A stretch of 64,000 nt of DNA. Source: Frischella perrara. Its GTDB lineage: Bacteria; Pseudomonadota; Gammaproteobacteria; Enterobacterales; Orbaceae. Every line of letters begins with the position of its first letter. The stretch's first letter is position 1. A model generated the notes under the pieces. The model was not told where the DNA came from. It was given only the letters and a program-made list of their open reading frames with translations, and ran no database searches. The stretch is from NCBI RefSeq assembly GCF_000807275.1, contig NZ_CP009056.1, positions 1,303,192 through 1,367,191 of the forward strand, given 5' to 3'. Positions 2,735-33,263 of the stretch are shown here, piece after piece. Made by a program: the position numbers and the translations under genes.

Positions 2735-4330
2735 GTGCTAAGTACAAATAATATTACAATGCAGTTTGGTAGCAAACCACTATTTGAAAATATATCGGTT
2801 AAATTTGGTGGTGGTAATCGTTATGGACTGATTGGTGCTAATGGTAGTGGTAAATCGACATTCATGAAAATCTTAGGTGGCGATTTAGTGGCAACATCTG
2901 GCAATGTTGCTTTAGATCCACATGAACGCATTGGTAAACTAAAGCAAGATCAGTTTGCTTTTGAGCAATTTACTGTTATTGATACTGTAATAATGGGACA
3001 TACCGAATTATGGCAGGTTAAACAAGAGCGTGATCGCATTTATGCTTTACCTGAAATGAGTGAGGAAGATGGTTACAAAGTAGCAGATTTAGAAGTTCAA
3101 TATGCCGAAATGGATGGTTATAGTGCAGAGTCCCGTGCCGGTGAACTTTTATTAGGCGTTGGAATTCCCGTCGAACAGCATTATGGTTTAATGAGTGAAA
3201 TAGCACCAGGTTGGAAATTACGCGTGTTATTAGCTCAAGCACTTTTTTCAGATCCCGATATTCTATTGCTTGACGAACCTACTAATAACTTAGATATTGC
3301 AACGATTCGTTGGCTTGAACAAGTGCTTAATGAACGTGAAAGTACTATGATCATTATTTCCCATGATCGTCATTTTTTAAATATGGTTTGTACCCATATG
3401 GCAGATTTAGATTATGGTGAATTACGGATATATCCAGGTAATTATGATGAGTATATGACGGCAGCCACACAAGCACGAGAACGTTTATTAGCCGATAATG
3501 CTAAGAAAAAAGCACAAATTAGCGAATTACAATCTTTTGTTAGTCGTTTTAGTGCTAATGCGTCAAAATCAAAACAGGCAACATCTCGAGCTCGTCAGAT
3601 CGAGAAAATTCAATTAGAAGAAGTCAAAGCATCAAGTCGACAAAATCCTTTTATCCGTTTCGAACAAGATAAAAAGCTATTTCGTAACGCATTAGTAGTC
3701 GAAAATTTAACTAAGGGTTTTGATAATGTTCCGCTTTTCAAACAGCTTAAACTAATGGTTGAAGTAGGGGAGAAAGTAGCAATTCTAGGTACCAATGGTA
3801 TTGGTAAATCTACGCTATTAAAAACACTGATGGGTGAATTGAGTCCAGATCAAGGTGAAATCAAATGGTCTGAAAATGCTAACATTGGCTATTATGCACA
3901 AGATCATGAATACGAGTTTGATCAAGATCTCAATCTTTTTGACTGGATGAGTCAATGGAAACAACCACAAGATGATGAGCAAGCGGTTCGAGGTATTCTT
4001 GGGCGTTTACTTTTTTCTCAAGATGATATTAAGAAAAATGTTAAAGTTTTATCGGGTGGGGAAAAAGGGCGTATGTTATTTGGTAAATTAATGCTACAGC
4101 GTCCAAATATCATTGTAATGGATGAACCTACGAATCATATGGATATGGAGTCAATTGAATCATTAAATCTAGCTTTAGAATTATATAAAGGTACTTTGTT
4201 TTTTGTTTCACACGACCGTGAATTCGTAAGCTCTCTAGCAACAAGAATTATCGAAATTACACCTGAAAAAGTAATTGATTACAGTGGTAATTATGAAGAT
4301 TATCTTCGTAGTCAGGGTATTGTGTCATAA
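2735..4330 (+). CDS. ybiT: ABC-F family ATPase YbiT
   Basis: Soluble ABC-F protein with two ATPase domains and no membrane segments. ABC-F proteins act on the ribosome rather than in transport. The 531 residues match E. coli YbiT closely over the whole length. Walker A motifs are at about residues 34-42 (GANGSGKST) and 352-360 (GTNGIGKST). The first Walker B is DEPTNN at 180-185 and the second signature is LSGGEKGR. The inter-domain linker (about 243-305) is charged and helical, with [22 protein letters not shown] as its hallmark region. Translation starts at GTG, with a short GAGAG upstream. A terminator follows 31 bp after the stop. Confidence 0.96.
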
Positions 4331-4361
4331 CACATCTTATTTTTGCTAATGATACCAAATG

Positions 4362-4398
4362 ACGCCTATTCTGTTTTTGACTCGAATAGGCGTTTTTT
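4362..4398. terminator. Intrinsic terminator between ybiT and metQ
   Basis: Ten-bp stem ACGCCTATTC / GAATAGGCGT with a 12-base loop and a T-run on the plus strand. It lies between the convergent genes ybiT and metQ and serves mainly ybiT. Confidence 0.85.
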
Positions 4399-4419
4399 AG
4401 CATACCAATTTAGAATAGG

Positions 4420-5247
4420 TTATCCACGAGGCCAAATGAATCGACCTTTCGCGTCAGGATCGTTATTGATAAATTTCTTCATTAAATCGGATTGATAAAG
4501 GTTTTTAATGTCTTTTGCCCACTGTTTATTAAGATCTTCTTTTTTAACCACAACCATTAGTTCAAGATCCGGTGTTAATTGTTCTTGAACTAATGCATCA
4601 GACGCGGGTACTTTACTTAACCAAGCAACACCGCCAGGCATAATACCATAATCCATTTCACTCAACATGCGGGGTATTAATTCAGATAGTACTGACTTAA
4701 ATTGTAAATTATATTGATTCTCTGCTAAATCCGTCAAATTTGCTGTTCCTAATTCAATTCCGGGTTTGAGGGAAATCCAATTTAATTTCTGTAGCATTAA
4801 TAATGCTCGCGCGGTATTGGATGGATCATTGGGTATAGCAATTGTTTGACCTTTAGCAATTTCATTAATGGAATGATGTTTTTTAGAATATAATGCTGCC
4901 GGTATTGAAGGTATATGTACAAGAGAAACTAAGTTATTGTTTGTTTCTTTATTATAGACATCCAAATATGCTTGATGCTGCGCAGCATTTAAATCAGTGT
5001 AACCTTCTACTAAAGCCGAATTAGCATCACGTAATGAGCTAAAATTAACCAGCTTAACTTTATATCCCATCTTTTCTAATTCAGGTTTGATGACACGTTC
5101 CATCATTATATTGTGCATACTAGGTGGTAGTCCGACTACAATCTCTTTTTTCTCTGAATGATTTGTTTGGTTATCCGATTTGTGATCACATGCAAAGGAA
5201 AGAAAGCCTAAAATGATCACAATGGGTATAGATAACAATTTCTTCAT
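4420..5247 (-). CDS. metQ: Methionine ABC importer, substrate-binding lipoprotein MetQ
   Basis: Periplasmic NlpA-family binding protein that hands methionine to MetNI. The N-terminus MKKLLSIPIVIILGFLSFAC is a lipoprotein signal with the lipid-modified Cys at residue 20, so the mature protein is membrane-tethered. Family marks include VGLPPSMHNIMM, the DLNAAQHQAYLD stretch and IAIPNDPSNTARALLMLQ. The length (275 residues) is normal. Last gene of metN-metI-metQ, about 50 bp after metI. The specificity for methionine is inferred from family and operon; related NlpA proteins can bind Cys or dipeptides. Confidence 0.92.
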   Translation of the reverse strand: MKKLLSIPIVIILGFLSFACDHKSDNQTNHSEKKEIVVGLPPSMHNIMMERVIKPELEKMGYKVKLVNFSSLRDANSALVEGYTDLNAAQHQAYLDVYNKETNNNLVSLVHIPSIPAALYSKKHHSINEIAKGQTIAIPNDPSNTARALLMLQKLNWISLKPGIELGTANLTDLAENQYNLQFKSVLSELIPRMLSEMDYGIMPGGVAWLSKVPASDALVQEQLTPDLELMVVVKKEDLNKQWAKDIKNLYQSDLMKKFINNDPDAKGRFIWPRG

Positions 5248-5298
5248 GATAACTCCTTTATAATTGGGGTTTTATAGAATCTAATAATAGAGATTGAT

Positions 5299-5976
5299 TT
5301 AATCTTTACGATGATGATTGCGTATTGATTTGGATAGTCGATTACCAATGGTTTGTATAATTTGAACAATGATAATTAAGGTGATAATCGTCGTTATCAT
5401 TGCAATATGATCAAATCGATAATAACCATAGTTAAGCGCTAAGTCACCAATTCCTCCCGCACCTATTGTGCCAGCTACAGCTGTCGCACCAATTAAACCG
5501 ATTGTTGCTGTGGTATAACTTAACACTAACGATGATTTTGCTTCTGGAAGTAAAAAATGCCAAATAACTTGCCAGGTTGTTGCTCCCATAGCATTAGCTG
5601 CTTCAATAATACCAGTATCAACTTCTAACAATGAATTCTCTACTAATCGAGCAATATAAGGACTTACAAAGAAAATTAACGGTAAGACGGCTGCTGTTGT
5701 GCCATAAGAAGTACCAATGATAAAGTAGCTTAAAGGTAGAACAGAGACGAGAAGAATTAAAGAAGGAATTGAGCGAACAATATTAATGAAGGTATTGAGT
5801 ATTACATAAATAATCCTATTTTCGGCGATACCTTTTGGTTTAGTGATAACTAAGATTACAGCGAATATTGTTCCTAAAATTGCGCCAAAAAATAATGATA
5901 TTCCAACCATCAAGAAGGTTTGATACAACGAAGTTAGAAATAAATCAGTTGTCAATAAGCTATTAAAATCAAACAT
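5299..5976 (-). CDS. metI: Methionine ABC importer, permease MetI
   Basis: Inner-membrane permease of the MetNIQ importer with about five transmembrane helices. The cytoplasmic EAA loop that couples to MetN reads EAANAMGATTWQVIW, followed by LLPEA. Other matches to MetI are NIVRSIPSLILL, GTSYG and GAGGIGDLALNYGY. I chose the ATG at 5974-5976, which overlaps the metN stop codon (ATGTTTGA) and has AAGGA about 8 bases upstream. The open frame extends further upstream to a TTG inside metN. The overlap implies translational coupling with metN. Confidence 0.93.
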   Translation of the reverse strand: MFDFNSLLTTDLFLTSLYQTFLMVGISLFFGAILGTIFAVILVITKPKGIAENRIIYVILNTFINIVRSIPSLILLVSVLPLSYFIIGTSYGTTAAVLPLIFFVSPYIARLVENSLLEVDTGIIEAANAMGATTWQVIWHFLLPEAKSSLVLSYTTATIGLIGATAVAGTIGAGGIGDLALNYGYYRFDHIAMITTIITLIIIVQIIQTIGNRLSKSIRNHHRKD

Positions 5977-7009
5977 AATTACCATCCTTATCCAATTTTG
6001 CAATTCGAACTTGCTTATTTCTTAAGAACTCGATCGCATCTTTAATATCTTTTGGTTTTCCTTCAATATTTACAAACATATAACCAATGACATTTTCTTT
6101 GATATCAATCATGTTTGAGAAAAGAATATTGATAGAGATTTTTCCGCAATCACGCAGTATGGCATCACTTAATACAGAATGTCGGCAAGATGAGCCTAGA
6201 AATTCAAATCGATAAATATTCGTAATGTCATTTTCCAACATATTATTAAGAATTTGGGTTGGTAATTTATCGTAAATAACGGCATTGATAAATTTTCGAG
6301 TAACAGGGGAGGCCGGGTTTTGAAAAATATCTACTACATTGCCTTGTTCGACAATTTGTCCTTTTTCCATGACTAACATATTATTACATATATGTTTAAC
6401 CACACTCATTTCGTGTGTTACCAAAACGATCGTAACTTTTTGTTCTTGATTAATACGCTTAAGTAAATCAAGAATTGCTCGTGTTGTCTGTGGATCTAGT
6501 GCCGAAGTTGCTTCATCACATAATAGTATTTTAGGTTGGTTAGCAAGCGCTCTGGCAATACAGACGCGTTGTTTTTGCCCGCCCGATAATTCACTTGGAT
6601 AAGCAAATTTTTTCTCTTTTAAATCAACAAAATTTAATAGTTTATCGACGATTTTATCGCGTTCTTTTTTAGCTACTTTAGCTAACAATAGCGGTAATGA
6701 AATATTTTCAGCGACAGTTTTAGACTCTAAAAGGTTAAAACCTTGAAAAATCATCCCTATCTTCTGTTTCATTTGGCGAATTTCATGAGTATTGAAATTT
6801 GCTAAATCATGACCATCAATTAAAATTTTACCAGAAGTAGGTTTTTCTAAAGCATTAATGAGTCGAATTAAGGTACTTTTACCTGCACCACTGTAACCAA
6901 TGATGCCAAATATATCATTGTCCTCAATAGCAATATTAATATTCTTTAATATCTTAGTTTCCTGTTTATTATGATAAAACGACTTATTAACATGTTTAAA
7001 TTCAATCAT
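5969..7009 (-). CDS. metN: Methionine ABC importer, ATPase MetN
   Basis: Cytoplasmic ATPase that powers methionine uptake through MetI. Walker A is GYSGAGKST (38-46), the signature is LSGGQ (141-145), Walker B is ILLCDEA (161-167), followed by SALDP and the H-loop region VTHEM. The C-terminal part from about residue 260 is the NIL domain, in which cytosolic methionine binds and shuts the transporter. This matches the 340-residue MetN architecture. It is the first gene of the operon. I looked for MetJ-type AGACGTCT boxes upstream and saw none, so regulation is not evident. Confidence 0.95.
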   Translation of the reverse strand: MIEFKHVNKSFYHNKQETKILKNINIAIEDNDIFGIIGYSGAGKSTLIRLINALEKPTSGKILIDGHDLANFNTHEIRQMKQKIGMIFQGFNLLESKTVAENISLPLLLAKVAKKERDKIVDKLLNFVDLKEKKFAYPSELSGGQKQRVCIARALANQPKILLCDEATSALDPQTTRAILDLLKRINQEQKVTIVLVTHEMSVVKHICNNMLVMEKGQIVEQGNVVDIFQNPASPVTRKFINAVIYDKLPTQILNNMLENDITNIYRFEFLGSSCRHSVLSDAILRDCGKISINILFSNMIDIKENVIGYMFVNIEGKPKDIKDAIEFLRNKQVRIAKLDKDGNYV

Positions 7010-7522
7010 AGGAATCTTACTTAATAAATTATCATTAATGCATCAAATGCGCCCAATTTATAAACTGCTAGTTATCAAAGAGTGACAAATGGAATAATAA
7101 ATATTGATTACTACCAGTTTTGATTCCTACCTAAATTAAATCTTCTTTATTTTCGATTCATTTTTTAAATATTACATTATTATAATAAAAACAAATATTT
7201 AGCAAATATTTTTTATAAAAAACCCATCCTTTTAATATATTAAATGCATCTTACCGGTGTATTTTTGTTTGATTTTCTCAAAATAATGAGAATAATTCCT
7301 ATTTAAATAAAAATATCTAATTCGTATTTGTATAATAAATATATTATTATCTGTTCTAAATTGATATTAATAAAATAATTGACGATTTTATTTGATGTTA
7401 ATTGGGCATTATTTTTAACTTATTACAATAATAAAAGTTGGATTTATTGATTTTTAACTATTGGCATGAAAAGAATATTGAGCCAGCGTTAGTGAATTAA
7501 ATTATAAAAAGGAGTTGATCTA
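7010..7522. other. Intergenic region between metN and the amidotransferase gene
   Basis: About 510 bp of very A+T-rich DNA separating two divergent genes. It must contain the promoters of the metNIQ operon (minus) and of the amidotransferase gene (plus). I see no open frame, tRNA, convincing operator or terminator. A stretch at 7282-7300 vaguely resembles a Fur box but is not convincing in such A+T-rich sequence. Confidence 0.7.
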
Positions 7523-23591: not shown

Positions 23592-23973
23592 ATGGTTTTT
23601 AATTTATAAACTATTGCTTGAAAAGATCACAATACGATCCTCTTTAAATAGGGGAGGGGGACACAATAAAAAGCCATATAAAAGTAATCTTCAATTAATC
23701 GTTATGTGACAATGTCACGTTTATTTAATATTAATGTATCTGACTGTGTTGTGAATATGATTTAGATTTGACTTATATATGTATATACGAAACTGATATG
23801 GTTAAAACGACATTCATTGTTTTAATAATCGCCATAAATCATAACTATATGAATTATTTAAATAATTTAACGATAAATAACATTCAGCAATAGGATTTTG
23901 TGATTAGTAAATTGATTTTATTTAAGTTATATTAAAGTTGCATTTAAATGCAAGTCTAACTTAGGAGAAAATC
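23592..23973. other. Noncoding region upstream of yghA
   Basis: About 380 bp between the valS terminator and yghA. It contains one copy of the GTGAC-N3-GTCAC palindrome (23706-23718), some 255 bp before yghA, and must hold the yghA promoter. I see no open frame or RNA gene. The yghA ribosome-binding site TTAGGAG lies just before its ATG. Confidence 0.6.
23706..23718. repeat. 13-bp palindrome GTGAC-N3-GTCAC, copy 2
   Basis: GTGACAATGTCAC in the yghA upstream region, flanked on both copies 1 and 2 by AT before and GTT after. A coding-strand copy with the same centre (AAT) lies 500 bp upstream within valS (23195-23207). Confidence 0.5.
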
Positions 23974-24861
23974 ATGAGTAAACAATCAAACAATCCGCTA
24001 ACTAAATACTATCACGACAAATTCCCAAAACAGAAACAGCCAGCTCCGGGATTACAATTTGAAATGAAGCCTGTTCCGGATTGTGGAGAAAAAAGCTATC
24101 AAGGTCATCAACGTTTAGAAGGCCTTAAAATGTTGGTTACCGGTGGCGATTCTGGAATTGGTCGAGCGGCAGCAATAGCTTATGCTAAAGAAGGTGCTGA
24201 TGTAGCAATTAATTATTTACCTCATGAACAGAAAGATGCCGAAGATGTAGCTAAAGTGATTGAATCAGTTGGTCGCAAAGCTGTGCTCATTCCAGGCGAT
24301 CTAAGTGATGAAGCATTTTGTAAAAAATTAGTTGATCAGGCTCATGAGAAACTTGGTGGATTAGACAATGTCACATTCGTTGCCGGAAAACAAACGGCTG
24401 TCGAAGATATAATGAAATTAACAACAGAGCAAATTAAGAAAACCTTTGAAATCAATGTATTCTCTTTGTTCTGGGTCACGAAAGCTGCATTAGGATATTT
24501 AAAAGCAGGTTCAACAATTATTACTACCTCATCAATTCAAGCTTATCAACCAAGTGCCAATTTATTAGATTATGCTTGTACTAAAACAGCTATAATTGCT
24601 TTCACTCGAGGCTTAGCAAAACAAGTTGCTAAAAAAGGTATACGAGTAAATAGTGTTGCCCCTGGTCCAATCTGGACACCGTTACAAATCTGTGGAGGTC
24701 AACCAAGTGAGGTGATCCCGGAATTTGGGAAACAAGCTCCATTAATGCGAGCGGGTCAGCCGGTAGAATTAGCGAGTTTATATGTATTTTTAGCGTCAGA
24801 GGAATCGAGTTATATTACGGCGGACACATTTGGTGTTACGGGTGGTATGCACATCAATTAA
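23974..24861 (+). CDS. yghA: Short-chain dehydrogenase/reductase YghA
   Basis: NAD(P)(H)-dependent oxidoreductase of the classical SDR family, 295 residues; E. coli YghA is 294. The N-terminal leader with [15 protein letters not shown] and [12 protein letters not shown] is typical of the YghA/general-stress-protein-39 group. The cofactor loop is [12 protein letters not shown] (56-67). The catalytic Ser/Tyr/Lys are in [10 protein letters not shown] and the YACTK motif. The physiological substrate is not established; the family is linked to stress and carbonyl reduction. The last 180 bases form the outer end of a 776-bp inverted repeat, and a second copy of this tail lies at 26950-27129. Confidence 0.93.
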
Positions 24862-24906
24862 GATCGGAACGAAGATCGTTACTCTCTATTATTCAGGTTA
24901 AAAAAC

Positions 24907-24937
24907 AAAAGGGCTTTAAGAAGTCCTTTTTATTTTA
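24907..24937 (+). terminator. Terminator of yghA
   Basis: Ten-bp stem AAAAGGGCTT / AAGTCCTTTT (one G-T pair), loop TAAG, then a T-rich tail. The inverted copy at 26874-26904 lies in the right arm. Confidence 0.8.
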
Positions 24938-25121
24938 TGACTTAATCAGAACTTGAAACCAACATAATAAAACGGGTACATATTTTTACCAATATAATTA
25001 AACGTCAAAAAAAACCATAGACTTAGTTTGTTCCCAGCACATCACACAAATTGACAAAACAAAGATAGAGCAGACATCAGACCATATAATTCATCAGCAA
25101 AGACTCGTGTTAAAATAGTTA

Positions 25122-25149
25122 ATTTAACATAATATACATTATGCGAATT
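25122..25149 (-). other. dif: dif site (left, inverted), XerC/XerD recombination site
   Basis: Read on the minus strand: XerC arm AATTCGCATAA, central hexamer TGTATA, XerD arm TTATGTTAAAT. From CGCATAA onward, all 24 bases match the E. coli dif core as I know it; only three of the four outer XerC-arm bases differ. dif is where XerCD, activated by FtsK, resolves chromosome dimers. This copy faces the opposite way to the one at 26662-26689. Confidence 0.93.
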
Positions 25150-25457
25150 TATTATTTTTTTAAAAAGGATCTTAATTTATCAATGCGATCCTAGATAAAA
25201 CGATCAAACTCAAAACCTATCCATCATAATCCAATTTTTAATTACGCCAAGTTTCCATAACTTTCCTTTTTCTTATCCAAAATATTTCTTATAGATTTAT
25301 TCAAATATTCTGTTTTTGTAAAATTTGAACTTATAAAATAAAAAATTAATTTTCTTTAGCAATTTCTAGTAAATAAAATATGACTAAATTTTATTATGTT
25401 ACTTGCCAATAAGATATGTTATTAATAAGATATTTCCAACCTAAAAACTTCGCATAA

Positions 25458-25594
25458 CTCAACCAATCAAAAAACATATGTATACATGTTACTTATTACT
25501 TGCCAACAAGTAACAGACAATGACCGCACAATAAAGTAGAATTTATATCAACTATGCGGATTAGTTATCAAACAAGGTTATAAAAGGGGTTAAA
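25458..25594. other. Start of the core between the repeat arms
   Basis: Noncoding A+T-rich DNA from the inner end of the left arm to a small broken gene. It includes a hairpin at 25496-25513 (TTACTTG / CAAGTAA, loop CCAA). A ribosome-binding-like AAAAGGGG at about 25582-25589 precedes the GTG at 25595. Confidence 0.5.
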
Positions 25595-25793
25595 GTGGAT
25601 ACTCTAAAAAAAACTATTAGATTAAAAAAGAAGAATCTGTTTCATTACAAGATAAAGCATTTTCTCTAACAAAAAGGCAATCTATCAGGGTAATAAAATT
25701 GTTTATCAAGAATCTAATATTGTTCATTATATAATTGATAAAATCTTAGAAAAAGTTGATATTGATGAAAATGGGAAATTAACTATAAGATAA
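25595..25793 (+). pseudogene. Small gene broken by two single-base losses in poly-A tracts
   Basis: A GTG with a good AAAAGGGG upstream begins a frame that stops after 24 codons. Adding one A to the A-run near 25623-25630, and one to the A-run near 25671-25675, would join three frames. The joined frame is a protein of about 66 residues: MDTLKKTIRLK, then EESVSLQDKAFSLTK, then AIYQGNKIVYQ and ESNIVHYIIDKILEK ending DENGKLTIR. I do not recognise the family. It may be a decayed gene of the mobile core, or the two short A-runs may be sequencing errors. A perfect 10-bp hairpin (TTTACCATGG, 25796-25819) follows its stop. Confidence 0.5.
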
Positions 25794-25925
25794 TTTTTAC
25801 CATGGAAAACCATGGTAAAGTTCGGGTGTCACTTAATTGACGTCGAAAGTGATAGTATAAATAACAAGCTATTTGTAATATATTGTTACAAAATTAAACT
25901 ATATTAATAAAAAGGATAAAAAATT

Positions 25926-26228
25926 ATGAATATAATAACAGCAGACACTTTGCCTAATAATATGAGAATAAAAGAAATTCACGGTATTATTGAAACAACG
26001 TATCCAATTGAAATATCAAAAAAAGGATTTATTAGAGGTCTTGTAGAGCGCAATAAAAATGAACATCAAGAGGCTTATGATAATTTTGTTAATTCAGCCA
26101 AAGAGTTAGGTAACGGTAATACCATATATGGCGTAAAAATATCAACAGCAATTGGATCTTTTTCAAACGGTACATATCTTTATATAACTTATTATGGAAC
26201 AATTGCTACCACAGAAATCATTGAGTAA
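25926..26228 (+). CDS. Small YbjQ/UPF0145-like protein in the terminus element
   Basis: A 100-residue protein without signal peptide or membrane helix. The layout (early beta strand with ITADTLPNNMRIKEIHGII, then FIRGLVERNKNEHQEAYDNF, a helix with an AKELG turn, NTIYGVKIS, and a final strand YLYITYYGTIATTE) resembles the YbjQ family of heavy-metal-binding-domain-like proteins. The match is by eye and only moderate. AAGGA lies about 9 bases before the ATG. It is the only intact gene between the inverted dif sites, so XerCD inversion or recombination between the arms would flip its orientation. Confidence 0.6.
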   Translation: MNIITADTLPNNMRIKEIHGIIETTYPIEISKKGFIRGLVERNKNEHQEAYDNFVNSAKELGNGNTIYGVKISTAIGSFSNGTYLYITYYGTIATTEIIE

Positions 26229-26353
26229 TAAATATTGATTCACATTTCGCATAATGACGTTATGCTAAATTCTTGATTGTTAGCCGACTGAGTCGGCCAA
26301 CATTTAACAATCTGCGACTTCAACATAACGCATAACGCATAACGCATTTTACA
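26229..26353. other. Core DNA with hairpins and tandem CATAACG repeats
   Basis: Contains a hairpin at 26275-26312 in which GATTGTTA pairs with TAACAATC and GCCGAC with GTCGGC. Three tandem copies of CATAACG plus CAT lie at 26324-26347. Both sit within the larger folded structure annotated at 26244-26364. Confidence 0.8.
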
Positions 26354-26364
26354 TTATGCGAAGT
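26244..26364. other. Folded attP-like structure made of two opposed dif-like sites
   Basis: At 26244-26270 a dif-like site reads XerC arm ATTTCGCATAA, a 5-base centre TGACG, XerD arm TTATGCTAAAT. At 26352-26364 an opposed XerC half site reads CATTATGCGAAGT. As single-stranded DNA the segment folds on itself: TTCGCATAATG (26246-26256) pairs with CATTATGCGAA (26352-26362). After a bulge, CGTTATGC pairs with GCATAACG in the tandem repeats, then GATTGTTA with TAACAATC, then GCCGAC with GTCGGC. CTX-type phages make their recombinogenic attP in this way from two inverted sites about 90 bp apart, with a bulged centre next to the XerC side. The similarity in design is my inference. Confidence 0.7.
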
Positions 26365-26661
26365 TTTTAGGTTGGAAATATCTTATTAATAACATATCTT
26401 ATTGGCAAGTAACATAATAAAATTTAGTCATATTTTATTTACTAGAAATTGCTAAAGAAAATTAATTTTTTATTTTATAAGTTCAAATTTTACAAAAACA
26501 GAATATTTGAATAAATCTATAAGAAATATTTTGGATAAGAAAAAGGAAAGTTATGGAAACTTGGCGTAATTAAAAATTGGATTATGATGGATAGGTTTTG
26601 AGTTTGATCGTTTTATCTAGGATCGCATTGATAAATTAAGATCCTTTTTAAAAAAATAATA

Positions 26662-26689
26662 AATTCGCATAATGTATATTATGTTAAAT
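26662..26689 (+). other. dif: dif site (right), XerC/XerD recombination site
   Basis: XerC arm AATTCGCATAA, central TGTATA, XerD arm TTATGTTAAAT on the plus strand. It is identical to the left dif but opposite in orientation, 1512 bp away. Recombination between them would invert 25150-26661 rather than delete it. Which of the two is used for dimer resolution cannot be told from the sequence. Confidence 0.93.
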
Positions 26690-26873
26690 TAACTATTTTA
26701 ACACGAGTCTTTGCTGATGAATTATATGGTCTGATGTCTGCTCTATCTTTGTTTTGTCAATTTGTGTGATGTGCTTGGCACAAACTAACACTATGGGCTT
26801 TTTTGACGTTTAATTATATTGGTAAAAATATGTACCCGTTTTATTATGTTAGTTTCAAGTTCTGATTAAGTCA

Positions 26874-26904
26874 TAAAATAAAAAGGACTTCTTAAAGCCC
26901 TTTT
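26874..26904 (-). terminator. Duplicate yghA terminator in the right arm
   Basis: Exact inverted copy of the yghA terminator at 24907-24937. It follows the truncated yghA fragment on the minus strand. Confidence 0.7.
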
Positions 26905-26949
26905 GTTTTTTAACCTGAATAATAGAGAGTAACGATCTTCGTTCCGATC

Positions 26950-27129
26950 TTAATTAATGTGCATACCACCCGTAACACCAAATGTATCCGCCGTAATATA
27001 ACTCGATTCCTCTGACGCTAAAAATACATATAAACTCGCTAATTCTACCGGCTGACCCGCTCGCATTAATGGAGCTTGTTTTCCAAATTCCGGGATCACC
27101 TCACTTGGTTGACCTCCACAGATTTGTAA
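26950..27129 (-). pseudogene. yghA: yghA 3' fragment (last 60 codons)
   Basis: Minus-strand copy of the final 180 bases of yghA, including the stop codon. It has no start codon or N-terminal domain, so it cannot make the enzyme. It differs from the intact gene at three positions, all synonymous third-position changes (GGG/GGA, GAC/GAT, ATC/ATT). This suggests that the two versions diverged while both were under selection as genes, for example in two strains, rather than after truncation. Confidence 0.92.
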
Positions 27130-27286
27130 TTATAATCAAGACAAAAACTTTATAGGCGATTTAAAAAAATTTTTAATGGAATTATAAATTATTTATTAAT
27201 GTTGTTACCCAACCTTTAATTTTTTTTTGAAAAATGTTAATCTTTACGAAGATAGGCACAATTTAACAATAAGATATATAATCCTA

Positions 27287-28009
27287 ATGCAAAATATTTA
27301 TAAAACCATTCGCAGTAAGAGTTACTCAGTATCATGTGAACTATGTCGCATTGGTCCATCTATTTGCATACCTAAATTACTAAATAACGCTCTTGATACA
27401 GTGGTCAATTGTAAACATGCGGTTTCAAAGGATGAAATTATCGTTAATGAAGGTACTGCTTTAGATAGATTCTATATTATAAATGCTGGCGCATTAAAAA
27501 CCTATATTACTGTCGAAGGTAAGGAGCAAATAAATGGCTTTTATTTACCCGGTGATATTATAGGTTTAGATAGTATTCATTCTTTAAAATATAATTGTTC
27601 AGTTAAAGCATTAACCAATAGCTTAATCTGTGAATTAAAATATGAAGAATTGATGACATTAGTATCACAAAATACTCATGTACGAGATACTTTATTTAAA
27701 TTAATGAGTGAAGATATTCATGACTTTAAGAAGCTAATTTTGTGTTTTTCGCAAAAAAATGCTGAAGAACGAGTTGGAATGTTCATTTATTCTTTATATA
27801 GCAAATATGCCCGTCGGGGTCATGTATCCCTTAATATAAAATTATCGATGAGCCGTAATGACATTGCAAACTACCTAGGGTTAACTATTGAAACGATTAG
27901 TCGTATCTTGACTCGTATGCAGGATTTAAATATTCTAACGGCACGCGGTAAGTATATTACAATTAAAAATCTACCTGCATTAATCAAATTTGCTGAATAT
28001 CACAAGTGA
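27287..28009 (+). CDS. fnr: FNR-family oxygen-responsive transcription regulator
   Basis: Crp/Fnr regulator of 240 residues. The N-terminus has Cys residues in CELCRIGPSIC, that is C-x2-C-x6-C, where E. coli FNR has C-x2-C-x5-C. The fourth cluster Cys (E. coli Cys122) is present in LICEL. An oxygen-labile iron-sulphur cluster is therefore likely. The cyclic-nucleotide-like beta roll follows (NAGALKTYITVEGKEQINGFYLPGDIIGLD), then a dimer helix and the helix-turn-helix DIANYLGLTIETISRILTR. The recognition residues E-x2-S-R match FNR, so TTGAT-N4-ATCAA targets are expected. I chose the ATG at 27287 by alignment; the frame opens upstream at a TTG. Its stop codon lies within a GTGAC-N3-GTCAC palindrome. 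Confidence 0.87.
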   Translation: MQNIYKTIRSKSYSVSCELCRIGPSICIPKLLNNALDTVVNCKHAVSKDEIIVNEGTALDRFYIINAGALKTYITVEGKEQINGFYLPGDIIGLDSIHSLKYNCSVKALTNSLICELKYEELMTLVSQNTHVRDTLFKLMSEDIHDFKKLILCFSQKNAEERVGMFIYSLYSKYARRGHVSLNIKLSMSRNDIANYLGLTIETISRILTRMQDLNILTARGKYITIKNLPALIKFAEYHK

Positions 28010-28039: not shown

Positions 28040-29152
28040 ATGAAACTAATTAAGACATCTTACATAGCTACATTGTTAGCTACTATGATTGGGGTTGGTA
28101 CTGCCAATGCATCTCAAGAATTAACACCTGAAAAAGCCGATTCACTTCAGTCTTTTAAAGAAATCTCTATTCGAGGATTATTCTATAGTGAATCTGATAG
28201 TGTTAGAGCAATGTCAAAAGCAGCAGATAAACAAGGTGCTGACTACTTTTATATTACGAGTACCAATGTAGCTCCAAGTAATGATGGATTAAGAATTGTT
28301 TATGCAAAATTATATAAAGCAGATGCAAAACCAGTTGATAAGACAGTAGAAAATTTCCGACAATTTAATGGTGTACTTGAATATCCAAAAGATACCGCTA
28401 TTCATTATGAACCTTATGACATAATAAGATTACGTGGATACTTCCCTACTCAAGTTGAATTAAATAATGCTGTTGCTAAAGCCGCATCTAAAAAAGATGC
28501 TTATGCTTTTTTTATAGATAGATTAGTTGAAGTTAATGGTGGAAATAAACAAATTACTGCATATTTATTTAAAAAAGATGCTGCTGAAAGAAAACTTCAA
28601 CCTGAAAATGCGATTCCTTATGATTCAGAAGCGGGTCAATTAGCTTTAGCTCAAGGGGGCGAAGCTGCAATGCAGGTAGAACGCCCAGGATATTATTCGT
28701 CATCAGCATTTAATGAACAATTTTATTCTAAAAAATTCAATAATTCAGTAATTGAAGATGTTAAGCAAGAACCAAATGTTAAAAAAGAACAAGCTGTAGA
28801 GAAAAACCAAACAATTGTGACTAATAACAATAAACCGGTCGCTTCTACAACTTTGGTCACCCCTACCCCATCTACGAATAATCAATTAGTAATTCCTCAA
28901 GTAAAAAGCTCTCGTTACACTGTAACGTTGCCAGATGGAACAAAAATTGAAGAACTTAATGATGGAACTGCGGCTAAAATGGTAGCATTTGATACAATTA
29001 AAATTAGAGGTTATTTTGTAACAGCACAAGAAATTTCTTATAAAGCTGGTAAGAAAGCAGCAGAAAATGGAGCTAAATATTTCCATATATCTCGAATTGC
29101 ACAAGATTCAAAAGGACCAAATAAAACAATTTATATTGATCTTTATCGTTAA
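28040..29152 (+). CDS. ydgH: Periplasmic YdgH family protein with three BhsA/McbA-like (DUF1471) domains
   Basis: Secreted protein of 370 residues (E. coli YdgH is 314). A signal peptide covers residues 1-24, ending ANA. Three copies of the small BhsA/McbA fold can be read: about 36-95 (FKEISIRGLFYSESDSVRAM), 118-178 (PYDIIRLRGYFPTQVELNNA) and 300-370 (FDTIKIRGYFVTAQEISYKAG), each with a KAA..KGA.YF.I pattern. The RYTVTLPDGTKIEELNDGTAAKMV segment is nearly the same as in E. coli. The spacer between domains 2 and 3 is longer and rich in Lys, Asn, Pro and Thr. Function is unknown; relatives are tied to stress and biofilm. The start lies 31 bp after the fnr-like gene. Confidence 0.9.
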   Translation: MKLIKTSYIATLLATMIGVGTANASQELTPEKADSLQSFKEISIRGLFYSESDSVRAMSKAADKQGADYFYITSTNVAPSNDGLRIVYAKLYKADAKPVDKTVENFRQFNGVLEYPKDTAIHYEPYDIIRLRGYFPTQVELNNAVAKAASKKDAYAFFIDRLVEVNGGNKQITAYLFKKDAAERKLQPENAIPYDSEAGQLALAQGGEAAMQVERPGYYSSSAFNEQFYSKKFNNSVIEDVKQEPNVKKEQAVEKNQTIVTNNNKPVASTTLVTPTPSTNNQLVIPQVKSSRYTVTLPDGTKIEELNDGTAAKMVAFDTIKIRGYFVTAQEISYKAGKKAAENGAKYFHISRIAQDSKGPNKTIYIDLYR

Positions 29153-29182: not shown

Positions 29183-29213
29183 AAAAGAAGAGGATCACCC
29201 TCTTCTTTTTATT
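29183..29213. terminator. Bidirectional terminator between ydgH and hrpA
   Basis: Perfect 11-bp stem AAAAGAAGAGG / CCTCTTCTTTT, 5-base loop, T-rich on both strands. The hrpA stop codon (29209-29211) overlaps its edge. Confidence 0.85.
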
Positions 29214-32200
29214 TCTCTAGTTCATCAAAAATTTGGTTAATCCGTTTTTCAGAAATTGGATATGGTGTGCCAAGTTGTTGGGCAAAAAGGTTAACTCTTA
29301 ATTCCTCAATCATCCAACGTATTTGCTGAATTTTATTTTCTTGTCCTTTATATAAATTGCTATTTTTTTTGAGAAATAAATAGCGTTGCGTTACTCTTTC
29401 AACAATTATCAAATTATTACGATCTTTGTTAGGATCTATTAATAATTTTTCAATGCGTTTTTCTATTGCCTGTAAATAACGATACAGATCAGGTAATCGT
29501 TGATAACCAATATCACAGACAAACCCTTTATATATTAAATTAGATAATTGTTGTTTAATATCAGCAAATGCTAAAGCCTGATTTAAATCAACTCGACCTT
29601 TCAGCTTTTTATTGATTTGATAATTTAACGTTAATATTTTTTCTAGTTGTTGTGCAATATCGACGACTAATTCATTGATATTACTTTTCACTTTTTCTAA
29701 TAAAGGCGGGAATAAATGTTGTTCATAAATAATACCTTCAGATTTTTGCTGAATTAAATAATCTATTCCACAAAAAATACAATCATCGATTAGGTCATTA
29801 ATTTTGCCAAATGGATTAAAGTACAAACCTAATTTTGCTTTATTAGGAAGTTTCTCATGTAAATATTTAATCGGTGATGGAATATTCAAATAAATTAATC
29901 GCCTAATTCCCGATAACATTAATTGAGATTGGTCATAGGGATTGTCGACTAATTTTATTGCAACGCTATTACCTTCATCAATTAAAGTTGGATAAGCCTT
30001 GATTGTATAATTCTTTTTTCTTTGCTCATAAATAACAGGAATATCCCCAAAATCCCAATTAGTTAATTCTTGTTTTTCTATATCACTGTCAGTATGTTGA
30101 GTAACTTGTTGAAGAGCAGATTGAACTTGATCTTTCAATTGCTGTTTGATTTGATTCAAATCTTTACCAGCTAAAATCGTTTTATTATTATCATTAACTA
30201 TATTAAATGTTATTTTCAGATAATCATCAACTAATGCTAATTGCCAGTTTTCACGATTTATTATGACGCCCGTCATTCTTTTAAACTCCTTTTCAAGAGT
30301 TACTAATAAATCTTCCTCACCAGGTTTGACTCTTTCCAGAAAAGCTTTGGCATAATTTGGTGCGGGCACTAAATTTCGCCGTAATGATTTAGGTAGGGAC
30401 TTTATTAACGATATGATTAAGTCTTGACGAAAGCCGGGAACTTGCCATTGAAAAATAGTATCGTTGTCGATTTGATTTAAAACAGAAACCGGTATTGTAA
30501 CCGTGACACCGTCACGTGCACCACCAATGTCAAAATGGTAACTTATTTTTAGTTTGATATTGTTATAAATCCAGTAATCTGGATAATCTTCAGTAGTTAC
30601 TTTATTAGCATTAGGATTAATTAAGGTTTGTTTATCAAATAACAAATAATCTGGGTTTGTAAGATGCTCTTTTTTCCACCAACTATCAAAATGTTTGGTT
30701 GAAATGACAGTATGAGGTATTTTTTGATCGTAAAATTGAAATAATGTATCAACATCGACTAAGATATCTTGTCGCCTTGATTTATGTTCGAGTGTTTCAA
30801 CTTCTTTAATGAGTTTCTGATTTTTGAGATAGAAATCATATTTAGCATCCCACTCCCCTTCTACTAAGGCATGACGAATAAATAGTTCACGACTCAACAC
30901 AGGATCAATGTCGCTGTAATTGACCAAACGATTATTAACAATTGGTAAACCAAATAGTGTGACTTTTTCATTGGCAATAGTCGTTCCTTGCTTTTTAGAC
31001 CAATGCGGTTCGTGATACTGTTTTTTTATTAAATGTTTAGCTAAAGGTTCAATCCACTCAACTTCAATTTTAGCAACATTTCGACCCCATAGTTTTGCTG
31101 TTTCAACTAACTCATTGGCCATACACCATTTAGGCGAGTTTTTAAATAAGCTAGAACCCGGGAAAATAGCAAATTTCATATTTCTAGGACCAAGATATTC
31201 AAATTTATCAATTTCTTTCATCCCAATATGAGATAATAAACCACTTAAAATTGATGTATGTATAGCTTGATAATCACTGTCATGATTATTAATTGGAAAA
31301 TTGAGTTGCTTTATAGTTTGTCTAATTTGCGTATAAATATCTTGCCATTCTTTAATTCTTAAGTAATTTAGGAACTCCTTCCGGCATAATTGACGAAATT
31401 GATTATTTGTTAATGCTTTTTGTTGTTCTTCAATATATCTCCATAAATTTAAATAACTTATGAAATCTGAATTTTTATCTGCAAAGCGTTGATGTTTTTG
31501 ATCTGAAGCTTGTTGTTTGTCAAAAGGTCTTTCCCTAGGATCCTGTATAGACAGTGCAGCAGTTATAATCATTATTTCTTTCACGCTTGCATGTTTACGA
31601 GATTCAACTAGCATACGAGCAAAACGAGGATCAATAGGCAATTGTGCTAACATCCGCCCTATTTTGGTTAAATGATAATGATTTTTCTTAGTATAAATTG
31701 CACCCAATTCTTCTAATAAACGGCTACCATCTTTTATATGCTTTTTTTCAGGCGATTCGATAAATGGAAATGCAGCTAAATTACCAAGATTTAATGCAAT
31801 CATTTGTAAAATAACTGATGCTAAATTTGTCCGTAGAATTTCAGGTTCAGTAAATAAAGGTCGATTTAGAAAATCTTGTTCATCATATAAACGTATACAA
31901 ATTCCATCTGAGGTTCGTCCACAACGACCTTTACGTTGATTCGCTGATGCTTGAGATATTGCTTCTATCGGTAAACGTTGAACTTTTGTGCGATAACTAT
32001 AACGGCTAATTCTTGCCATTCCTGGATCAATCACAAATTTTATGCCAGGCACTGTTAATGAAGTTTCAGCGACGTTAGTTGATAAAATAATGCGTCTACC
32101 ATTATGTGGGCGAAATATACGATTTTGTTCAGCACTTGAAAGACGAGCATATAAAGGAATAATTTCTGTATGGAATAGGTTTAATTTAGACAGAACATCG

Positions 32201-33135
32201 GCCAAATCTCGTATTTCTCGTTCACCTGTCAAAAAAATCAGAATATCACCACGATTATCTTCCATTGACAATTCATCAATTGCATTAATAATCCCTTGAA
32301 AATCATCATAATTATTTTCATCATCTTTCATAATAGGTCGATAACGAACTTCAACAGGATAAGTTCTACCCGATACTTCTATGATAGGTGCATGATTAAA
32401 ATGACGAGAGAAACGCTCAACATCAATTGTTGCTGAAGTAATAATAACTTTTAAATCAGGTCTTTTAGGTAAAATTTGCTTTAAATAACCTAAAATAAAA
32501 TCAATATTGAGACTTCTTTCATGGGCTTCATCAATAATAATCGTATCATATTGAGTTAATAACCGATCATTTTGGATTTCGGCTAACAATATACCGTCGG
32601 TCATCAGTTTTATTAGCGATGAATCTTTAACATTATCATTAAATCTGACTTTATATCCGACGATATCTCCTAATTCAGAGTTCAATTCCTCAGCAATACG
32701 AACGGCAACAGATCGGGCTGCAAGTCTTCTTGGTTGCGTATGACCAATAAACCCTTTGACACCGAGTCCTAGCTCTAAACAAATTTTTGGTATTTGTGTC
32801 GTTTTTCCAGAACCTGTTTCGCCTGCAATAATGACAACTTGATTATCATTTATAGCTTTATATATATCGGCTTTTTTTTGAGTTACTGGTAATTCTTCTG
32901 GATAACTAATTCTATTAGGTACCTTATGTAGTCGAATAAGATAATCATTGTGCGCAATTTCTATGCGAGATTTAACTGATAGTAAATCGGCTTCGCTCGC
33001 TAATTTCCTTTTAGATAAATCAGATAATTCTTTGATAAATTTCACTTTTTCCTTAATAGTGACAGTATCTAACTTATCAAATAATTCTTGTATTTGCTGA
33101 GAATTAAGCATATTTTGTAATAAAGTTAATTTCAT
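29209..33135 (-). CDS. hrpA: ATP-dependent RNA helicase HrpA (DEAH box)
   Basis: Large DEAH/RHA helicase, about 1308 residues (E. coli 1300). It acts on RNA; E. coli HrpA takes part in fimbrial mRNA processing and in rescuing stalled or collided ribosomes. Walker A is GETGSGKTT (105-113), the DEAH box is at 202-205, SAT is in ITSATI, and motif VI is QRKGRCGR. The helicase core is followed by HA2, OB-fold and the long DUF3418 C-terminus typical of bacterial HrpA. I chose the ATG at 33133-33135; a TTG lies four codons upstream, and MLNSQQIQEL at 33111 is another option. It is divergent from hslJ. Confidence 0.95.
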   Translation of the reverse strand: MKLTLLQNMLNSQQIQELFDKLDTVTIKEKVKFIKELSDLSKRKLASEADLLSVKSRIEIAHNDYLIRLHKVPNRISYPEELPVTQKKADIYKAINDNQVVIIAGETGSGKTTQIPKICLELGLGVKGFIGHTQPRRLAARSVAVRIAEELNSELGDIVGYKVRFNDNVKDSSLIKLMTDGILLAEIQNDRLLTQYDTIIIDEAHERSLNIDFILGYLKQILPKRPDLKVIITSATIDVERFSRHFNHAPIIEVSGRTYPVEVRYRPIMKDDENNYDDFQGIINAIDELSMEDNRGDILIFLTGEREIRDLADVLSKLNLFHTEIIPLYARLSSAEQNRIFRPHNGRRIILSTNVAETSLTVPGIKFVIDPGMARISRYSYRTKVQRLPIEAISQASANQRKGRCGRTSDGICIRLYDEQDFLNRPLFTEPEILRTNLASVILQMIALNLGNLAAFPFIESPEKKHIKDGSRLLEELGAIYTKKNHYHLTKIGRMLAQLPIDPRFARMLVESRKHASVKEIMIITAALSIQDPRERPFDKQQASDQKHQRFADKNSDFISYLNLWRYIEEQQKALTNNQFRQLCRKEFLNYLRIKEWQDIYTQIRQTIKQLNFPINNHDSDYQAIHTSILSGLLSHIGMKEIDKFEYLGPRNMKFAIFPGSSLFKNSPKWCMANELVETAKLWGRNVAKIEVEWIEPLAKHLIKKQYHEPHWSKKQGTTIANEKVTLFGLPIVNNRLVNYSDIDPVLSRELFIRHALVEGEWDAKYDFYLKNQKLIKEVETLEHKSRRQDILVDVDTLFQFYDQKIPHTVISTKHFDSWWKKEHLTNPDYLLFDKQTLINPNANKVTTEDYPDYWIYNNIKLKISYHFDIGGARDGVTVTIPVSVLNQIDNDTIFQWQVPGFRQDLIISLIKSLPKSLRRNLVPAPNYAKAFLERVKPGEEDLLVTLEKEFKRMTGVIINRENWQLALVDDYLKITFNIVNDNNKTILAGKDLNQIKQQLKDQVQSALQQVTQHTDSDIEKQELTNWDFGDIPVIYEQRKKNYTIKAYPTLIDEGNSVAIKLVDNPYDQSQLMLSGIRRLIYLNIPSPIKYLHEKLPNKAKLGLYFNPFGKINDLIDDCIFCGIDYLIQQKSEGIIYEQHLFPPLLEKVKSNINELVVDIAQQLEKILTLNYQINKKLKGRVDLNQALAFADIKQQLSNLIYKGFVCDIGYQRLPDLYRYLQAIEKRIEKLLIDPNKDRNNLIIVERVTQRYLFLKKNSNLYKGQENKIQQIRWMIEELRVNLFAQQLGTPYPISEKRINQIFDELEK

Positions 33136-33263
33136 GAAAATCTTCAATTAGTTATGTATTATAGCAAAATTTAAAGATTTTAAAAAAAACTATTACTTAG
33201 TTATGATTTTAATCATAATGACAAGAATATAGTGTTTTGTACCGACAAATGAGGAGTAAATGT

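Follow-up and report, generated by a model that had tools for sequence, protein, structure and literature searches.

Two opposed dif sites at the chromosome terminus

Most bacterial chromosomes have one dif site, used for untangling joined chromosomes. The chromosome of Frischella perrara (Orbaceae, a family of insect-gut bacteria) has two, in opposite orientation, within the 64,000-nucleotide stretch analysed here (the window; contig NZ_CP009056.1, positions 1,303,192 to 1,367,191). We consider it probable, at roughly 0.7, that the host recombinases XerC and XerD (XerCD) invert a decayed dif-integrated phage lying between two such opposed sites. Two inverted dif sites had been proposed in an original prediction made from the letters of the window, and their sequence, coordinates and strands agree with it. 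Positions are those of the window unless a contig is named.

25122..25149, minus strand: left dif, with the XerD arm pointing outward (left) and the XerC arm inward; differs from E. coli dif at 3 positions
25150..26661: segment between the dif sites, 1512 bp, presumed invertible; orientation varies among relatives
26662..26689, plus strand: right dif, identical to the left and inverted, XerD arm towards fnr

Both sites are AATTCGCATAATGTATATTATGTTAAAT (28 bp) and match E. coli dif at 25 of 28 positions. Each has the XerC arm, 6-bp centre and XerD arm of a dif site; the single copy per chromosome that is also expected of dif is not found, two perfect copies being present. The chance expectation of dif matches in the window is 0 (100 shuffles). 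When up to 3 mismatches are allowed, the pair provides the only dif matches in the complete 2.69-Mb chromosome, and no better dif was found elsewhere in it by this genome-wide search.

FtsK orienting polar sequences (KOPS; GGGNAGGG) are directed at the dif pair in 54 of 62 cases. Their direction switches between contig positions 1,326,842 (plus) and 1,332,052 (minus), which bracket the pair. GC skew, sampled at 17 places of which one gave no data, is +0.060 to the left of the pair and -0.064 to the right. The prediction of a replication terminus is borne out, since KOPS and sampled GC skew both switch at the pair. The genome encodes XerC, XerD and the FtsK-gamma domain. The locus is the terminus, and the two sites are the dif sites of the chromosome.

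23651..23658, plus strand: last rightward KOPS before the dif pair
28861..28868, minus strand: first leftward KOPS after the dif pair

Genome G000 has a further FtsK-gamma match (80 bits; contig C1:545819-546001, L150), which is interrupted by two stop codons, lies about 0.8 kb downstream of the end of the intact FtsK-gamma, and is perhaps the relic of a duplicated ftsK 3' end.

Distribution of the pair and inequality of its sites

Among 44 genomes of this family, 30 have a dif pair on a single contig; in every one the XerD arms point outward and the XerC arms inward, and the spacing ranges from 137 to 2455 bp. Several of these genomes are single-contig chromosomes. In four more genomes contigs end at dif sites (G001, G014, G022, G031), five have a single dif (G002, G004, G008, G011, G062), and five could not be judged (G007, G015, G017, G065, G066). 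No close opposed pair was found among 274 other genomes of the order at up to 2 mismatches, a threshold that a more decayed second site would escape; only G154, a 0.2-Mb genome, has one match per strand, and these are poor and 88 kb apart. The architecture is real, old and family-wide.

The members of a pair differ almost entirely in one arm. Within the 30 pairs, mismatches number 0/180 in the centre, 3/330 in the XerD arm and 100/330 in the XerC arm. All pairs thus consist of opposed sites with the same centre, and the unusual centre of G016, TCTATA, is found on both of its sites. All active inverting Xer pairs of Acinetobacter plasmids have identical centres (PMC9947245), and the identical centres seen here fit this requirement of recombining Xer pairs. 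In most pairs one site is good (dif1) and the XerC arm of the other (dif2) is poor; second sites of this degenerate kind occur mainly in Gilliamella. In the window, G013, G034 and G060 both sites are good, having been made so by an inverted duplication. Just outside dif2 many genomes have AGTTCG(C/T)AATAAT, which looks like a displaced chromosomal XerC arm. In that case dif2 would be the left attachment site of the phage, overwritten with the centre and XerD arm of dif in inverted form, and we suggest, from sequence similarity, that the inner arm of dif2 came from a phage attachment site (attP) such as that of L160. In G029 (L092) the XerC arm of dif2 is shifted (ACTTCATAATATG).

Evidence for inversion

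In all readable genomes the same side of the pair is occupied by fnr, ydgH and hrpA, and the fnr-adjacent site is dif1 or dif2 according to the species. These comparisons show that the segment has opposite orientations in different species.

27227..28009, plus strand: fnr, in every readable genome the neighbour towards which the XerD side of the right dif faces
28040..29152, plus strand: ydgH-like gene, conserved neighbour (PF07338)
29209..33147, minus strand: hrpA, conserved neighbour, used for the tree

On a tree of Fnr, YdgH and HrpA the orientation requires at least 5 changes, a minimum and not a rate; shuffles gave 6.9, and 9% of them were as low, which indicates weak clustering. In the sister species G016 and G024 the 138-bp interiors are identical at 127/138 positions, and only when one of them is inverted.

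Two draft assemblies contain both arrangements. One contig of G026 joins dif2 to the far flank and another joins it to the fnr side, the two diverging right after the dif core. In G030 two contigs carry the same flank, which meets dif1 in one of them and dif2 in the other. The repeats shared at these junctions, about 22 bp in G026 and 40 bp in G030, are too short for assembler collapse or for good homologous recombination, which supports site-specific inversion at dif. Inversion inside single cultures is strongly suggested by these junctions. Both orientations are thus found between species and within the G026 and G030 assemblies, and not in the window itself. We infer that XerCD and FtsK carry out the inversion; any effect on the cell, or benefit to it, would be hypothetical.

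G021 was considered as another within-culture inversion. It has the same pattern with a shared repeat of at least 134 bp outside dif1, which makes it ambiguous, and it was set aside.

Phage relics between the sites

In several genomes dif1 is adjoined by the 3' end of a replication gene from an inovirus (G2P/RstA; PF05155 or PF05144). Of the 44 family genomes, 8 have this relic with a score above the curated cut-off; in others it is decayed. The viral contig L145 has the same replication-gene end followed directly by GGTTCGCATAATGTATATTATGG, which is evidently its attP. Given the replication-gene relics beside dif1 and the gene end and attP of L145, the interior between the dif sites is, on sequence grounds, mostly decayed phage. 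No relative of the L145 Zot, and no intact inovirus carrying it, was found in the 44 family genomes with a single query, which is weak negative evidence. A search of viral contigs for the dif2 sequence as an attP returned one unrelated contig for the exact core and eight unrelated AT-rich matches for dif2 plus its inner arm. The attachment sites of prophages that exploit Xer recombination are in direct orientation; the sites here are inverted in all 30 pairs.

Gene content of the interiors varies. Five genomes have geneless interiors of 137-139 bp, and no gene is common to the interiors of different genomes. The 2.2-kb interior of G029 (L092) has a complete 577-aa open reading frame (ORF), and that of G033 (L097) a gene for an Aca2/YdiL-like regulator (PF08965, E 2.4e-13). 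G030 has a 43-bp near-palindrome at L093:6211-6253 (TTTATCGTGGTACGCATAATG/GCATTTTGCGTACCACGATAAA) in which two XerC arms stand face to face; beyond it is another decayed replication-gene end, and the whole looks like the XerC-XerC product of an earlier phage recombination. Two inovirus contigs from other hosts end in a complete dif (L117:6161-6190, L124:7232-7260), prophages caught with their dif junction.

Inverted repeat and core of the window

Each dif of the window is part of one arm of an inverted repeat of 776 bp whose arms are 99% identical (98.7% by blastn), a feature that the original prediction had overlooked. The identity of the two sites to one another is therefore explained, in the first instance, by inverted duplication. 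The right arm holds a truncated end of a short-chain dehydrogenase/reductase (SDR) gene that is intact on the left, which makes it probable that sequence from the left was duplicated onto the fnr side. On the inside, both arms stop exactly at XerC half-sites (25449-25457 and its mirror, 26354-26362).

23974..24861, plus strand: SDR-family oxidoreductase, intact, far side of the left dif (PF13561)
24682..25457, plus strand: left arm of the inverted repeat, with the SDR gene 3' end, dif and 308 bp inward to the XerC half-site
25449..25457, plus strand: XerC half-site TTCGCATAA, inner end of the left arm
25458..26353: single-copy core, 896 bp, with XerC half-sites TTCGCATAA and TTATGCGAA on its two sides
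25926..26228, plus strand: 100-aa ORF, cargo or relic, perhaps YbjQ-like (Pfam YbjQ_2 E 0.0043, YbjQ_1 E 0.0061)
26246..26362: putative CTX-type folded attP relic, with XerC arm stem TTCGCATAATG / CATTATGCGAA, unpaired centre and XerD-like stem CGTTATGC / GCATAACG
26354..27129, minus strand: right arm of the inverted repeat; the SDR gene 3' end is duplicated here in truncated form, upstream of fnr

As single-stranded DNA, the region 26246-26362 is predicted to fold with z scores of -5.4 (plus strand) and -6.5 (minus strand), and 0/200 shuffles are as stable. Its layout, with XerC arms in inverted orientation about 80 nt from each other and GTTATGTTGAA ... TTTAGCATAACGTCATTATGCGAA between them, and these two words themselves are as in the intact inoviruses L118-L141. 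The window thus has the folded attP of two inverted Xer-type sites that characterizes CTX-type phages. The 896-bp core is thus, at least partly, a relic of a CTX-type dif-integrating phage. No phage genes were recognised in the core of the window, and the core has no match in phage records. Both YbjQ matches of the 100-aa ORF are below the Pfam cut-off; it has no PHROG match and is not present in the dif interiors of relatives.

Comparable repeats occur elsewhere in the family. The dif pair of G013 (L074) is surrounded by a 1.28-kb inverted repeat (4124-5400 / 5770-7042; 1277 bp, 99.5%); towards fnr it includes part of a flank gene of 646 aa, copied in truncated form, and it parallels the arms of the window independently. 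Arms of 43-67 bp outside the pair are perfect or nearly so within each of G016, G024, G009 and G028 (L077, L086, L070, L091) and species-specific, a sign of concerted evolution.

Proposed mechanism and alternatives

Filamentous phages that use the host XerCD, known as integrative mobile elements exploiting Xer recombination (IMEX), would integrate at the Orbaceae dif and then decay. One end of the relic would be a functional dif (dif1), and the other (dif2) would have the centre and XerD arm of dif inverted and, usually, a poor XerC arm. KOPS-guided FtsK would bring the terminus together and activate XerCD at dif. XerC and XerD would then recombine the opposed sites of one chromosome, so that the relic inverts and the flanks stay put; the relic would be invertible because both sites have the XerD arm outward and the same centre. 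In the window, the longer inverted duplication would have put a second perfect dif in place of the degenerate site, and a second relic, the folded attP, would lie in the core. Recombination between opposed sites of sister chromosomes could, by contrast, rearrange a dimer, an outcome that would be either rare, dif2 being weak, or repaired by a second round.

Several observations weigh against inversion of a phage relic by XerCD. The evidence for both orientations in one culture rests on draft contigs, and in the window the orientation is unreadable, 308 bp inside each dif being identical on both sides. With its degenerate XerC arm, dif2 may be recombined poorly. Similarity of the dif2 inner arm to phage L160 exceeds that of shuffles in 2/25 genomes (G067, G018; 200 shuffles). 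In G025, G032, G063 and G064 the old XerC-arm relic is with dif2 on the fnr side, for which simple inversion at dif is insufficient without an added copying event. The five relatives with a single dif indicate that the pair is not essential.

Copying could also account for the pair as a whole, as a passive scar. An inverted site would arise by template switching or gene conversion at the near-palindromic dif core during replication termination, and the orientation would change by homologous recombination, not by XerCD. Outward copying is evident in the arms of the window (776 bp) and G013 (1277 bp), where in each case the fnr side has received the end of a gene from the other flank, and perfectly matched arms of 31-97 bp that differ between species are found in G009, G016, G018, G024, G028 and G029. 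However, many pairs share just the dif core of about 22 bp, too short for efficient homologous recombination, both junctions of G026 change exactly at this core, and copying leaves unexplained the XerC-side difference that most pairs have kept. We regard this explanation as unlikely, although it fares best among the alternatives.

Somewhat more doubtful is a domesticated, selected terminus. FtsK acts from the XerD side of dif. With XerD arms facing both replichores, FtsK arriving from either side would meet an XerD arm first; a symmetric two-dif terminus would run dimer resolution in the family, and constant inversion of a short segment would be tolerated. The outward XerD arms of all pairs, the KOPS converging on the pair, its retention in most of the family, and a centre and XerD arm that are nearly invariant while the XerC arm drifts are in keeping with this. 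The five single-dif relatives live without the second site, however, and a pair of opposed dif sites on sister chromosomes could carry a risk of dimer misresolution, an argument made for Lactobacillus delbrueckii ssp. bulgaricus (PMC5345009).

The original prediction had offered an unusual terminus architecture or a switch flipping the small gene at 25926-26228. The unusual terminus stands, as does, by inference from relatives, inversion of the segment by XerCD; the switch does not, the gene being absent from the interiors of relatives. Phase variation of a cargo gene in general, for which the ORFs of the window, G029 and G033 might be cited, is very improbable and was dropped, because the interiors share no gene and five have none. 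An assembly artefact in the F. perrara genome, inverted repeats being a classic cause of misassembly, is refuted for practical purposes by the same architecture in 30 separate genomes, single-contig chromosomes among them.

Comparison with known systems and significance

Each ingredient of the Orbaceae terminus has a precedent, inverted dif pairs in L. bulgaricus and Xer inversion in Acinetobacter plasmids. The L. bulgaricus pair lies in terminal inverted repeats of 38-76 kb (PMC5345009). Both systems have two opposed dif sites at the terminus inside an inverted repeat; the L. bulgaricus arrangement spans tens of kb in one subspecies, whereas the Orbaceae sites are about 0.14-2.5 kb apart and family-wide, with one site usually degenerate, a phage relic inside and a variable orientation. 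Plasmid pXerC/D (pdif) modules of Acinetobacter, in which reversible inversion was shown by polymerase chain reaction (PCR; PMC9947245), and chromosomal dif module islands (PMC12907356) likewise have opposed Xer sites around a module, but these are plasmid or extra dif-like sites, the main dif being thought uninvolved, whereas the Orbaceae pair includes the dif of the chromosome. Integration at dif beside a replication gene, and in the window a folded attP whose two inverted sites are separated by about 80-90 nt, are shared with CTX-type and other dif-integrating inoviruses (IMEX; PMC5357621); unlike in those prophages, the far site is inverted and the intact phage is gone. Legionella LME-1 (PMC9765430) is also a mobile element at dif with one intact and one altered site, but its sites are direct repeats, and it is excisable and uses a single recombinase, XerL. 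No description of such a conserved chromosomal pair was found in the literature searched, many subscription papers lying outside it, and the arrangement appears to be undescribed.

The one-dif rule rests on the expectation that a second, inverted site would lead to dimer misresolution by XerCD and confusion of FtsK. A cultivable family of gut bacteria with two opposed dif sites makes this assumption testable. If FtsK acts from the XerD side, the outward XerD arms would let either replichore activate a site. The pair would also be a natural readout of XerCD activity, as each recombination flips a short segment that can be scored by PCR; at E. coli dif, an excision cassette recombined in 20% of cells per generation (PMC2680272). 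The relics between the sites suggest that dif-integrating phages can permanently remodel the terminus.
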